A stretch of DNA of 52,875 bases, taken from Pirellulaceae bacterium. Lineage in GTDB: Bacteria > Planctomycetota > Planctomycetia > Pirellulales > Pirellulaceae. The stretch spans positions 1-52,875 of the forward strand of contig JASMLW010000544.1 of NCBI GenBank assembly GCA_030748485.1, read 5' to 3'. Shown piece by piece: positions 1 to 45,183 of the stretch. The notes under the pieces were generated by a model that was given only the letters and a program-made list of their open reading frames with translations, ran no database searches and was not told where the DNA came from. The position numbers were made by a program, and so were the translations under genes. Within the stretch, counting starts at the first letter, position 1. Each line of letters opens with the position of its first letter.

Positions 1-6
1 GAGCGA

Positions 7-112
7 CGCCAAAGAATTTCTTCCCGCCTCGAAGGCCCGAAGGGGCCGCAACATGTCAGCCCGGGGCAGAGCGCAGCGGCGCAGCCGCGAAGCGCCGCCC
101 TGGGTTACCGAT
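7..112 (+). repeat. Direct repeat copy 1, left arm of a large palindrome
   Basis: This 106-bp block recurs with no difference that I can see at 275-380, an offset of 268 bp. Its second half, from about 41, is also the left arm of a long imperfect palindrome whose right arm is at 158-212. The two arms match over about 51 bp once a 16-bp GC-rich stretch present only in the left arm (about 74-89) is skipped, with one further mismatch. The loop contains a short inverted repeat (CCCTTTCAGGG). No reading frame here resembles a protein. Confidence 0.85.
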
Positions 113-157
113 TGATCGGTAATATTATGCCCTTTCAGGGCGACGGGGTGGGGGATT

Positions 158-242
158 TCCCAACCCAGGGCGGCGCTTCGCTCTGCCCTGGGCTGACATG
201 TTGCGGCCCCTGCGGGGCGAAGAAAGGCGGGGAGCAGGTCAG
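158..242 (-). repeat. Inverted right arm of the palindrome plus repeated tail
   Basis: Positions 158-212 are the reverse complement of the left arms at 41-112 and 309-380, lacking the 16-bp insertion. Positions 211-242 form a 32-bp tail that recurs exactly at 407-438, just before xseA. The arrangement arm, inverted arm, arm, tail suggests a repeat that has duplicated locally. Confidence 0.8.
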
Positions 243-274
243 ATGAAGATGCGGAATAGAAGAAGGGCGAGCGG

Positions 275-380
275 CGCCAAAGAATTTCTTCCCGCCTCGA
301 AGGCCCGAAGGGGCCGCAACATGTCAGCCCGGGGCAGAGCGCAGCGGCGCAGCCGCGAAGCGCCGCCCTGGGTTACCGAT
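275..380 (+). repeat. Direct repeat copy 2
   Basis: Second copy of the block at 7-112. It is followed by about 26 bp of other sequence and then by the tail copy at 407-438, which ends two bases before the first possible xseA start (TTG at 440). The whole 1-438 stretch therefore appears to be repeat rather than gene. Confidence 0.85.
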
Positions 381-466
381 CGATGAAGACCCCGTCCTGA
401 AAGGCCTGCGGGGCGAAGAAAGGCGGGGAGCAGGTCAGGTTGTCGAAAAACGATCGGAGCGGGACA

Positions 467-12002: not shown

Positions 12003-12276
12003 GCGCGCGTCTCCGTGGAGAAATCGATTGGGGTGTTAGCGATCTTTCGAGCACACAAACGATCTATTCGGTCGGCGCCTTGCTGTCTTGGCTCGCAATT
12101 GACTCAGCGTCCGGCGACTCGCAACCCTCTGAGCTTGACAAGCATCTAGATCTAGAATACGAGGCACTATCCGAAAATTCGAGCTGTTGTTGTGTTGAGG
12201 AATCGTGACTTTTATCTCGATTCCAGCGACCGACGGGAGCGGCGAGCGAAGCCTGTAGTGTGAGTGGCACAGCCAC
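12003..12276. other. Intergenic region, gene-free, mostly plain sequence plus a decayed repeat
   Basis: No coding frame of quality on either strand. From 12188 to the dnaA stop it is a degenerate copy of the 106-bp dispersed repeat described at 42818-42923. The rest shows no structure I can name; a promoter for the small membrane protein should lie near 12010-12060. Confidence 0.5.
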
Positions 12277-12278
12277 TT
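12188..12278 (+). repeat. Degenerate third copy of the 106-bp dispersed repeat
   Basis: It shares the opening (TGTTGAGGA), the central GATTCCAGCGACC block followed by GACGGGAGCGG, and the end GTGAGTGGCACAGCCACTT with the copies near 42.8 and 43.4 kb, but has lost about 15 bp in the middle. Its right edge overlaps the dnaA stop codon (TAA on the - strand, 12279-12277). Confidence 0.7.
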
Positions 12279-40257: not shown

Positions 40258-42537
40258 ATGCGACCTGACCTGCTAACGACCCTGCGAGCCACTCTGCGAG
40301 CCACCCTGCTCTTGCTAACCTGCGGAGCCGCTTTCGAAGTTGGCTTGGCTGCGGCCGCGGAGCGAAAAAAAACGCCGCCCGAGTCATCGATCGGCAAGCA
40401 GGTTGCAAACTTCGCGCTCTCGGACCAGCGCGGCCGCAATTGGACGCTCGAACAATTCGCCGACAAGAAGGTCGTGGTGGTCGCGTTCCTCGGCGTCGAC
40501 TGCCCGCTTGTGAAACTCTATGCGGCCCGGCTGGAGGAGTTGAGCCAGGAGTTCGCCGAGGGTGGAGTCGCATTTCTCGGCGTCAGCTCCAACCAACAGG
40601 ATTCATTGGCCGAGCTGGACCATTTCGTCCGCCAGAACAAGATCGCGTTTCCCATGCTGAAAGATGTCGGCAACCGCATCGCCGACCGCCTCGGAGCCGA
40701 ACGAACTCCGGAGATCTTCGTGCTTGACCAGCAACGGAAGGTGCAATACCACGGCCGTGTTGACGATCAATACACGTACGGAATTCAGCGTCCCAAAGTC
40801 AGGCGGCAGCACTTGAAACTCGCCATCGAATCGCTGCTCGCCGGCGAGCCGGTGGAGCTGGCGGAAACGCAAACAGTCGGCTGCCACATCGGCCGAATTC
40901 TAAAGCCGACCGGTGACGAATCGGTCACGTATTACAAACACATCGCGCCGATCTTGCAGGACAACTGCGTGTCGTGCCACCGCAGCGGTGAAGTCGCGCC
41001 GTTCGAGTTGATTGAGTACGACGAAATCGTCGGCTGGGCCGGCATGATCGCCGAGGTTGTCGAGCAGCGGCGGATGCCGCCCTGGCACGCCAATCCGAAG
41101 TACGGCCATTTCTCCAACGAATCGACGTTGTCCACTGACGAAAAGGAACTGATCTACGCCTGGGTCGAGGCGGGAGGTCCGGCGGGAGATGTCGCCGACG
41201 CGCCGCAGCCGCGAACCTTCGCGGACGGCTGGCAGATCGGCAAACCGGATCTTGTCGTCAAGATGTCCAGCAAGCCGTTCCGCGTGCCGGCGAACGGAAC
41301 GGTGAAGTATCAGTACTTCGTGGTCGATCCGGGTTTCAAAGAGGACAAATGGGTGAAGGCGGCCGAGTGCCGGCCCGGAAATCGCGCCGTCGTGCACCAC
41401 ATTATCGTCGCCGCCCGCTCTTCCGGCGGACGCGGCGGAGTTCACGGAGCCCCCGACTCGCATTGGATCTCCGCCACGGCCCCCGGCGCGCCGCCCATGC
41501 GATTGCCGCCGGGCATGGCGAAGAGGATTCCAGCCGGATCCAAGTTGCTGTTTCAAATGCACTACACGACCAACGGCACCGAGCAAAACGATCTCAGTTC
41601 AGTGGGCTTGGTGTTCGCCGATCCCGCAGAAGTCAAACACGAGGTCTCGACACAGGCTGCCTCGAAACGCCGAATTCGCATTCCACCGCACGCGGCGAAC
41701 CACAGGGAGGACGCCTCCTATCGATTCGAGCGCGACTCCCTCTTGCTGGGCCTCTTCCCGCACATGCATTTGCGCGGCAAGTCATTCAGGTACACACTCG
41801 TCTATCCCGACAATCGCCGCCGGATTCTGCTCGATATTCCAGCGTACGATTTCAATTGGCAAAACGGTTATCGGCTGGCTGAGCCCAAGATGATCCCGGC
41901 CGGCTCCAAACTGGAGTGCGTCGCCCACTACGACAATTCAGAGAACAATCCGGCCAACCCCGATCCCACGAAGACCATTCGCTGGGGAGATCAAACGTGG
42001 GATGAGATGATGATCGGGTATTTCGATATGTGTTGGGTCGAAGAGGTGTCGGCGGTCTCCCGCACCGATCAGTTCTTGGAGTCGATCGCCAAACAACAGG
42101 CTGCGGACTGGAAGTCACTCCGCCGCTCGGCTCTCGCCGCACCCGAGTCGGATGACGCGATGAAAAAATTCTCCGAGTCGATCCGGCGCGTATTCCCTCA
42201 AGTCGATCGGGTCGACTGGAGCATTGTCGAAGACGACAAGCTGCGCATCTTGCGAATCGCTCAACCCAAGAGCGAGCGCTCGCAACTGGCGGGCAAAGTC
42301 AGTGTCGGCGCCGCCGGCATGGCGTTGGCCGAGTACGGCAGGGGCGCCGAAATCGTGGCGCACGCGGACCTCGGCAAACAGCGCCACGGCGATCTGCGTT
42401 TCATGGCGCGGCGCTATCGCTCCAGCGCTCACGTGCCGCTGAGAATCGGTGAACAGACCGGAGTGCTCAGCTTCTGGAGCCGGGAGGGAAAGGCGTTCCC
42501 GACCGCAGCCGTCGATATGCTTGAGCGACTTCGATAG
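40258..42537 (+). CDS. Redoxin / cytochrome c / copper monooxygenase-like fusion
   Basis: 759 residues, exported (signal TLLLLTCGAAFEVGLAAAA). Redoxin fold at 45-195 with a single Cys in GVDCPLVKLYAARLEEL. A c-type heme site, CVSCH at 237-241, with SGEVAPFELIEYDE after it. A copper type II monooxygenase-like region at 325-600: HH at 380-381, MHY at 434-436, HMH at 502-504 and the MMIGYFDM segment near 584, matching the His/Met ligands of peptidylglycine monooxygenases. The last 130 residues look GAF-like (AHVPLRIGEQTGVLSFWSRE). Possibly an oxygenase fed electrons through the heme. Substrate unknown. Confidence 0.82.
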   Translation: MRPDLLTTLRATLRATLLLLTCGAAFEVGLAAAAERKKTPPESSIGKQVANFALSDQRGRNWTLEQFADKKVVVVAFLGVDCPLVKLYAARLEELSQEFAEGGVAFLGVSSNQQDSLAELDHFVRQNKIAFPMLKDVGNRIADRLGAERTPEIFVLDQQRKVQYHGRVDDQYTYGIQRPKVRRQHLKLAIESLLAGEPVELAETQTVGCHIGRILKPTGDESVTYYKHIAPILQDNCVSCHRSGEVAPFELIEYDEIVGWAGMIAEVVEQRRMPPWHANPKYGHFSNESTLSTDEKELIYAWVEAGGPAGDVADAPQPRTFADGWQIGKPDLVVKMSSKPFRVPANGTVKYQYFVVDPGFKEDKWVKAAECRPGNRAVVHHIIVAARSSGGRGGVHGAPDSHWISATAPGAPPMRLPPGMAKRIPAGSKLLFQMHYTTNGTEQNDLSSVGLVFADPAEVKHEVSTQAASKRRIRIPPHAANHREDASYRFERDSLLLGLFPHMHLRGKSFRYTLVYPDNRRRILLDIPAYDFNWQNGYRLAEPKMIPAGSKLECVAHYDNSENNPANPDPTKTIRWGDQTWDEMMIGYFDMCWVEEVSAVSRTDQFLESIAKQQAADWKSLRRSALAAPESDDAMKKFSESIRRVFPQVDRVDWSIVEDDKLRILRIAQPKSERSQLAGKVSVGAAGMALAEYGRGAEIVAHADLGKQRHGDLRFMARRYRSSAHVPLRIGEQTGVLSFWSREGKAFPTAAVDMLERLR

Positions 42538-42541
42538 CCTG

Positions 42542-42958
42542 ATGGACTGCGAACACGCGACTTCGCGGGCCCTGTTTGGCGAGTTGGCGCCATTCGCCGC
42601 CACGCGAGTCGACATGTGCCTCGATCGCGCCTACGTCGACTTGTTCTGCTTCGACTACCGCAACCGCCGGCGAAGTCCGGCCGTCATCCTCTGGCTGGCC
42701 GATCGGGCGAACGAGGCCTACCTGGAGTGGGAGCACCAACCCCTCGACGAAGATGATGATGATGACGAGTTGGCAGGCGTGCGCTGGGATGAATTCGCGA
42801 TCCCCGTCGCCGACAGTTGTGGCGTTGAGGATGCGGGACTTCCCTGGTTGGATTCCAGCGACCAACGGGAGCGGACGAAGTCGAACCGAGCGGCAGCTCG
42901 CTTTGTGAGTGGCACTGCCACTTTCGCCGACTTCGTCAAGATGCTGCGCCCAGCCTAG
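42542..42958 (+). CDS. Small acidic protein carrying an in-frame repeat
   Basis: 138 residues. The first 90 (VDMCLDRAYVDLFCFDYRNR, then SPAVILWLADRANEAYLEWE and an Asp run) look like an ordinary folded acidic protein. From about residue 93 to 127 the reading passes through a 106-bp dispersed repeat (CGVEDAGLPWLDSSDQRERT onward), then resumes as FADFVKMLRPA. The ATG follows the previous stop by four bases but has no clear ribosome site. Real gene status is probable, not certain. Confidence 0.6.
   Translation: MDCEHATSRALFGELAPFAATRVDMCLDRAYVDLFCFDYRNRRRSPAVILWLADRANEAYLEWEHQPLDEDDDDDELAGVRWDEFAIPVADSCGVEDAGLPWLDSSDQRERTKSNRAAARFVSGTATFADFVKMLRPA
42818..42923 (+). repeat. 106-bp dispersed repeat, copy inside a coding region
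   Basis: Begins TGTGGCGTTGAGGATG, contains GATTCCAGCGACC and a GAACCGAGCGGCAGCTCG hairpin-like core, and ends GGCACTGCCACTT. An inverted copy of the same length is at 43364-43469 and a decayed one at 12188-12278. The copies near 42.8 and 43.4 kb match at most positions apart from one variable patch after the first 16 bases. It lies wholly inside the gene at 42542. Confidence 0.85.
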
Positions 42959-42960
42959 AA

Positions 42961-43078
42961 CACCGACTCGCACAGCATCACCGACTCGCACAGCATCACC
43001 GACTCGCACAGCATCACCGACTCGCACAGCATCACCGACTCGCACATCTCCGCCGACTCGCGCATCTCCGCGGACTGA
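42961..43078. repeat. 18-bp tandem repeat array
   Basis: CACCGACTCGCACAGCAT occurs four times in a row (42961-43032), followed by degenerate units (CACCGACTCGCACATCTC, CGCCGACTCGCGCATCTC) to about 43078. It lies between the converging genes at 42542 and 43096, immediately after the former's stop. No coding value seen. Confidence 0.9.
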
Positions 43079-43339: not shown

Positions 43340-43363
43340 ATAACGACCGCTGGGAAGCTGGTC

Positions 43364-43469
43364 AAGTGGCAGCGCCACACACAGAGCGAGCTGCCGCTCG
43401 GTTCGACTTCGTCCGCTCCCGTTGGTCGCTGGAATCGATTGAGCAAAGTCTCACATCCTCAACGCCACA
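43364..43469 (-). repeat. 106-bp dispersed repeat, inverted copy
   Basis: Same element as 42818-42923 on the opposite strand, equal length. Here it is intergenic, between the Lys-rich gene and the 3' end of ettA, 40 bp from the ettA stop. On the - strand it can also be read through as CSIDSSDQRERTKSNRAAAR, close to the peptide at the coding copy, but no gene appears to use this frame. Confidence 0.85.
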
Positions 43470-43509
43470 AGGGCCGTAGGTCGCCCAATTGCCGGAAAGG
43501 CCGCGGGCG

Positions 43510-45183
43510 TTATTGCCGCAGTTTCTTGTAGCGGAATCGGCGTGGCGCATCGGCGGAGATTCCCAGCCGTTCGCGCCGTTGCTGCTCGTACGTCTGGTAA
43601 TTCCCCTCGCACCAATGGACGTAGGCGTCTCCTTCGAAGGCCAGCACATGGGTGGCGATGCGGTCCAGGAACCAGCGGTCGTGACTGGTCACCACGACAC
43701 ACCCGGCGTAGTTCAGAATCGCTTCCTCCAGAGCTCGTAGCGTGTCGACATCGAGATCATTGGTCGGCTCGTCCAAGAGCAGGACATTGGAGCCGCGGCG
43801 GAGGAGCTTGGCCAAGTGGACCCGGTTTCGCTCGCCGCCGGACAATTCGCCGACTTTCTTTTCCTGATCGACGCCGCGAAAGTTGAACCGGGAGACGTAG
43901 GCCCGCGAGTTGATTTTGCGGCCGCCCATTTCCAAATGCTCGTAGCCGCCCGATATCTCCTCGTAGACCGTCTTCTCGGCGGCCAACGCGTCGCGGGTCT
44001 GATCGACGTAGCCGAGTTCCACGGTCTCGCCGACCCGCAGGCCGCCCGAGTCGGGCGCGTCCTGACCGGTCAGCATGCGAAACAGCGTCGTCTTGCCGGC
44101 TCCGTTGGGGCCGATCACGGCGACGATGCCGCCCGGAGGCAAACGAAAATTCAAGTTCTCCATCAACTGATTGTCGCCGAACCCCTTGTTCAAACCCTCC
44201 GCTTCGATCACGAGATCGCCAAGCGTCTTGCCCGGCGGGATCTGGATTTCGAATTCGTCCGGTCGCTCCTCGAATCCCGCCGAAGCCAATTGTTGGTAGG
44301 CCTTGAGCCGCGCTTTACTCTTGGCTTGCCGGGCGCGGGGAGCCATCCGGATCCAATCGAGCTCCCGTTCGAGCGTCTTTTGCCGAGCCGCGCTGGAACG
44401 TTCTTCCCGCGCCAGCCGCTGTTGCTTCTGCTCAAGCCACGAGCTGTAGTTGCCCTCCCACGGGATGCCCTCGCCGCGATCGAGTTCGAGAATCCAACCG
44501 GCCGCATTGTCCAGAAAGTAACGGTCGTGAGTCACCGCGACCACCGTGCCAGGATAGCTCGACAAGTGTCGCTCGAGCCAGGCGACGCTGTCCGCATCGA
44601 GATGGTTGGTCGGTTCGTCGAGCAGCAACAGGTCCGGCTGTTCGAGCAACAACTTGCACAACGCCACTCGACGCCGCTCGCCGCCCGACAACGTGGCGAC
44701 TTCCGCTTCCCGCGGCGGCAAGTTCATGACGTCGAAGGCAATCTCGATTTCCCGATCGAGCTCCCAAGTGTTGGTCGCTTCGATTTGGTCCTGTAGGCGA
44801 GCCATCTCGTCGCACAGCTTCTGCATCTGGTCGTCGTCCATCGGCTCGGCTAACGCCTCGCTGATCTCGTTGTAACGAACAACTAACTGGCGTCGCGACT
44901 GGACCGCTTCCTCGACATTGCCCCAGACATTCTTGTCGGGATTCAGTTCGGGCTCTTGGGCGAGAAAGCCTCGAGTGAATCCATCGGTCAGCCGCGCGTC
45001 GCCGTCGAAGTCGTCATCCAACCCCGCCATGATCCGCAACAGCGTGCTCTTGCCCGCCCCGTTACGGCCCAGCACACCGATCTTTGCGCCTGGATAAAAC
45101 GCCAGCCAAATATCTTTCAGCACCTCGCGCTGTCCGCGCTTTTTAGTGAGGTCGGCGATTGTGAAGATGTACTGCTTGCCCAT
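43510..45183 (-). CDS. ettA: Energy-dependent translational throttle protein (ABC-F)
   Basis: Soluble ABC-F protein that binds the ribosomal E site and gates elongation by energy state. Two ABC domains: Walker [14 protein letters not shown] and [13 protein letters not shown]; signatures [16 protein letters not shown] and [16 protein letters not shown]; Walker [13 protein letters not shown] and [12 protein letters not shown]. The inter-domain linker ([20 protein letters not shown]) and the second half match the EttA group. 557 residues, as usual. A -10 box lies upstream at 45251-45256. Confidence 0.95.

Follow-up and report, generated by a model that had tools for sequence, protein, structure and literature searches.

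Introduction

The Rickettsia palindromic elements (RPEs) and their Wolbachia counterpart are short repeats, dispersed and about 105-150 bp long, that lie both between genes and in frame within conserved protein genes, where the peptide inserts they encode are tolerated (PMC2229807, PMC10969869). Counting these, in-frame short elements have been described in Rickettsia, Wolbachia, enterobacteria and Neisseria (PMC2229807, PMC10969869, PMC2759123), and REPs occur inside genes and in Planctomycetes (PMC3733652). Here we analysed a stretch of 52,875 nucleotides from a member of the Pirellulaceae (hereafter the window), in which a repeat runs in frame through a predicted gene. Like the RPEs, this planctomycete element is also inserted in frame in genes that relatives have without it. 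Unlike them, it consists of local hairpins and a constant 18-nt core rather than a single long palindrome, and it is found in tandem arrays, in several reading frames, in a different phylum and also in phages. Judged by these features, it works like an RPE and is not one.

Other families share part of this description. With REP/RAYT systems the element has in common a high copy number, hairpins, grouped copies and occasional copies within genes, but it is about 105 bp long where REPs measure 20-40 bp, lacks the GTAG/CGTC tag at the hairpin foot and has no RAYT adjoining it. As with the MITEs ERIC/RU-1, RU-2 and RU-3 and the 107-bp Neisseria element, it is non-autonomous, about 100 bp long and has open frames that become fused to genes (PMC2229807, PMC2759123). 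It differs from MITEs in having asymmetric ends without terminal inverted repeats of 15-30 bp; the only such repeats are GTGGC/GCCAC in this genome, and there are none in other genera. Miniature elements derived from IS200/IS605 carry hairpins near their ends, recognise a short target by the left end and lack long terminal repeats. The planctomycete element has these same features, but the analysis turned up no insertion sequence whose ends match. A text search of the literature for the core sequence and its peptide found no description, and Rfam gave no match for the window element or its relatives at E-values up to 1 and 0.5. In-frame selfish insertion is thus already known, while this planctomycete and phage element is apparently undescribed in the literature searched.

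A dispersed 105-bp repeat

Three copies of the repeat lie within the window:

42818-42922, + strand: element copy of 105 bp, inside an ORF and in frame, encoding CGVEDAGLPWLDSSDQRERTKSNRAAARFVSGTAT
43364-43469, - strand: second element copy, intergenic and inverted, 90% identity to the first
12189-12278, + strand: third element copy, decayed, of the same family as the copy at 42818 (nhmmer E 1.7e-14)

Compared over 42818-42923 (+) and 43364-43469 (-), the first two are identical at 95 of 106 positions, as copies of one repeat, and with genome-wide matches as well the repeat read from the window is real. It had been described as a dispersed repeat of 106 bp. The dispersal stood, but each unit spans 105 bp (35 codons), and base 106 is part of the adjacent copy or the flank, being shared between tandem copies. 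As predicted, the copy at 43364 matches that at 42818 in both length and open frame, here within an ORF at 43362-43649 (-). This ORF overlaps the end of an ABC-F gene and is probably non-coding.

Copies were counted in the genome from which the window comes, 8.7 Mb in 649 contigs. A search with the full-length repeat sequence returned 69 scored matches, and a 20-base core pattern, allowing up to three mismatches, gave 117+79 matches against 0+2 for the reversed control. Based on the pattern counts and about 100 arrays, the census stands at ~194 element copies in 8.7 Mb. Copies frequently follow one another head-to-tail with a period of 105, and the 104 distinct arrays hold one profile match (73 arrays), two (26), three (4) or four (1). 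The nearest relative of a unit lies in the same array for 18 of 37 array units, which indicates that arrays stem partly from repeated insertion or old duplication.

Structure and target site of the element

The element follows a plan of a variable 5' part of ~45 nt, the constant core AGCGACCAACGGGAGCGG, two hairpins and a short end. In the copy at 42818 these parts and the left target are placed as follows:

42814-42817, + strand: left target CAGT, followed by T, fitting C-N-N-T|T
42858-42872, + strand: core hairpin GCGACC-AAC-GGGAGC, constant and bearing tandem G.A mismatches, within the 18-nt constant core at 42857-42874
42887-42900, + strand: hairpin 1, CGAGC-GGCA-GCTCG, covarying between genera
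42909-42921, + strand: hairpin 2, GTGGC-ACT-GCCAC, covarying between genera

Related elements align at lengths of 105-118 nt, and a GTAG or CGTC tag is absent from the hairpin foot throughout this alignment. Across the whole structure 98.0% of cells were paired, compared with 89.6% in shuffles, and 43 cells were changed on both sides, compared with 9.6; sliding of the hairpin partners abolished pairing. The core hairpin is a potential fold with two tandem G.A mismatches whose sequence is nearly invariant, and because the core hardly varies, covariation is uninformative on it. The original prediction had likened the repeat to the RPEs. The likeness is borne out at the level of function, by in-frame insertion in genes, but does not extend to one long palindrome, since the folding z-score of the whole element is -0.39, not better than shuffles, and only local hairpins are present.

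Flanking bases define an insertion target. Of 82 left flanks, 72 have C at -4 and 75 have T at -1, and on the right G lies three bases past a constant T in 60 of 77 flanks, giving C-N-N-T|T-N-N-G as the target in this genome. The target consensus, CACT|TGTG, is also the sequence at which tandem units join. A left flank resembling the element end was also seen in G063 (CTAG) and G519 (TTAG), two genomes of other genera. Here the element ends, GTGGC/GCCAC, have TT on both flanks, an arrangement that fits either a 2-bp duplication or a shared junction.

In-frame copies within genes

To define in-gene cases, codon usage was scored on both flanks of each array, and arrays whose two flanks are coding, on one strand and in a compatible frame, were translated. 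Besides the window copy, the following cases were obtained:

L037: sulfatase, one unit in frame
L145: methyltransferase-like protein, two units (named from sequence; Pfam match none)
L007: BatD-like protein, one unit plus a partial one (named from sequence)
L027: protein with a cytidylyltransferase-like domain, two units
L006: glycosyltransferase region, perhaps a fusion of two genes
L131: beta-lactamase-fold protein, unit directly behind the likely start codon
L086: two partial pieces of the element
L004: a weaker in-gene case

At L131 (1955-3724) the unit splits the signal peptide of the gene, and a downstream start may serve in its place. The two pieces at L086 (730-1905) are apparently separate partial elements within one gene.

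Comparison with relatives revealed clean empty sites. The sulfatase insert occupies residues 733-767, inside the Pfam Sulfatase domain (555-973). Fifteen relatives align up to query residue 64-67 and resume, at a neighbouring genomic position, from 100-106; in the relatives aligned pairwise the gap is 35 or 36 residues and falls in a variable loop. In one example, NSLAHHK-[35]-GNDDYPSRPALQ stands here against NSMAEYK-NRSYPNTPALQ in the relative. In the methyltransferase, the segment between 188 and 257 (69-70 aa) is absent from five relatives; two of these, aligned by residue, lack exactly two units (70 residues), so that GRYVAAE-[70]-VPNLPF reads GRYVAAE-LPDLPF. Relatives of the BatD-like protein join about 232 directly to 283-286, and the extra segment comprises one unit and about 16 residues resembling a partial unit.

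The gene in which the repeat was first noticed is placed as follows:

42542-42958, + strand: host gene, 138 aa, orphan, with 92 aa ahead of the insert and 11 aa behind it

As anticipated, the ORF crosses the repeat with no stop, resumes as the tail FADFVKMLRPA and runs to 42958, and a codon-usage gene call takes it in as 42521-42955. The product has no Pfam or NCBIfam match, and no convincing homologue was found in 241 genomes of the family, the best being a 34-residue match at E 0.009. Given that the gene has no homologue for comparison, its segment might be native sequence and no insertion at all. We consider this highly improbable, as copies in unrelated surroundings on other contigs match the segment at 93-97% identity, which identifies it as an insert. 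Without the insert, the natural reading of the protein would be ..VADS|FADFVKML... A single-sequence structure model of the protein had a mean pLDDT of 52.7, too low to interpret. Directly 3' of the stop of this gene, an 18-bp tandem repeat, CACCGACTCGCACAGCAT, runs for about 5-6 copies (window 42961-43070).

The repeat had been proposed to be tolerated as a peptide insert, and a search for other in-gene copies in the same frame had been suggested as a check. In-frame copies in conserved genes with clean empty sites uphold the tolerance, but not an adaptation to translation, and among the in-gene copies four different frames occur, on both strands. The element consensus is open in five of six frames, a level reached or exceeded by 14.5% of shuffles. 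Array lengths are divisible by three in 8 of 8 in-gene arrays and in 40 of 56 others (p = 0.18). Adaptation of the element to translation was rejected, unit length and open frames being no better than chance. In other genera the unit is near 109-115 bp, and preservation of the frame is therefore not general. The predicted inserts suggest an element that is tolerated in frame and does not appear to be built for translation. Only about 9 of 104 arrays lie within genes, in contrast to a coding share of ~85% in the window, and copies are therefore strongly depleted from genes, through selection or target choice.

Distribution in Planctomycetota and phages

Elements of the same plan were found in other genera of the same family and in another family of the same class. 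Pattern or model matches extend over Pirellulaceae, Planctomycetaceae, Thermoguttaceae, Schlesneria, Fuerstiella and phage contigs, with 64 core matches in one genome (G007). Matches beyond Planctomycetota are weak and are not claimed as members.

Copies also occur on IMG/VR contigs that carry phage genes, and G279 has them within a prophage-like region. Segments containing the core lie in frame in a phage primase, in a phage helicase near its start, and in the nuclease domain of two terminases at differing positions; one further in-frame copy is in an AcrB-type transporter. Four loci of planctomycete phage or prophage DNA (L347, L364, L361, L315) carry the element, some of these contigs with several copies in about 10 kb.

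Candidate mechanisms of movement

Dispersal, exact insertion and a target motif demonstrate mobility. Very probably the repeat is a non-autonomous mobile element of ~105-115 bp, spread across Planctomycetota and their phages, with its mover supplied in trans. A recombinase or transposase acting in trans would recognise the constant core and the hairpins and insert whole units, singly or several together, at the target. With every insertion a target would be recreated at the edge of the element, and arrays would build up in this way. In this genome, where the usual unit happens to be 105 bp and has stops in few frames, insertions into genes would lengthen the protein by multiples of 35 residues; insertions that fall in variable loops or linkers would survive selection.

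The identity of such a mover can be weighed by analogy with known enzymes. A Y1 (RAYT/IS200-like) transposase, acting in trans on single-stranded DNA, is the leading if doubtful candidate, and the element would then be REP-like or an IS200-derived miniature. The hairpins near one end, the absence of long terminal inverted repeats and the unit-length arrays are consistent with this, as is the likeness of the last bases of the element to its left flank in several genera (CACT here, CTAG in G063, TTAG in G519); by analogy, two Y1 genes in this genome lie among tandem two-hairpin units of other families. Against it, the element flanks none of the 61 Y1 loci from 10 genomes, and the single locus with a copy inside 1.5 kb (at a distance of about 1.3 kb) belongs to a genome rich in copies. 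No IS200/IS605 parent with matching ends was found among these 61 loci. Moreover, G448 has an element copy and no Y1 match, G007 has just two Y1 genes, both IS200-like, for its 64 core matches, the GTAG/CGTC tag is absent at the hairpin foot, and target information lies on either side of the insertion.

This two-sided target fits a circle and a site-specific recombinase about as well as a Y1 enzyme. Here an IS110-like, serine or tyrosine recombinase would recombine the CACT|TGTG junction of a double-stranded circle with matching targets, a somewhat unlikely route in our estimation. The target consensus equals the element junction on both sides and the arrays have a one-unit period, both of which argue for it, but no recurrent neighbour gene emerged when ORFs around 173 loci were clustered; the clusters held just translated repeats and common planctomycete families. 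A DDE-type miniature inverted-repeat transposon making a 2-bp TT duplication (TT|GTGGC...GCCAC|TT) would explain the GTGGC/GCCAC ends flanked by TT in this genome. With terminal repeats of just 5 bp that are absent in related elements of other genera, we judge it improbable.

With the non-autonomous element moved in trans as our preferred reading, we tentatively suggest something broader: a phylum-wide class of hairpin elements with an invariant tandem-G.A core, common to Planctomycetota and their phages. Its mover would be a type of enzyme as yet unconnected with elements of this kind, and it would have added peptides of 35 residues, or similar, to host and phage proteins time and again. In-frame selfish repeats have hitherto been known mainly from Rickettsia and Wolbachia, with scattered ERIC, REP and Neisseria cases. 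In large-genome planctomycetes and their phages a different element has the same outcome: empty sites are clean, and one methyltransferase even contains two units in tandem. These numerous copies are natural tests of how far proteins tolerate insertions, and the conserved core is a handle for seeking the missing enzyme.

Other hairpin repeats were seen at the window edge and around Y1 genes. Window positions 1-438 hold a different family, with 116-bp copies 268 bp apart and inverted 47-bp arms, that also surrounds the gene for a Y1 transposase of 160 aa on contig C113 (L212); together they look like a REP/RAYT pair. On contig C304 (L224, 800-2400), a 158-aa Y1 transposase lies between tandem two-hairpin units of ~114 bp with GTAG on one strand, and the same unit is also present near the end of L004.
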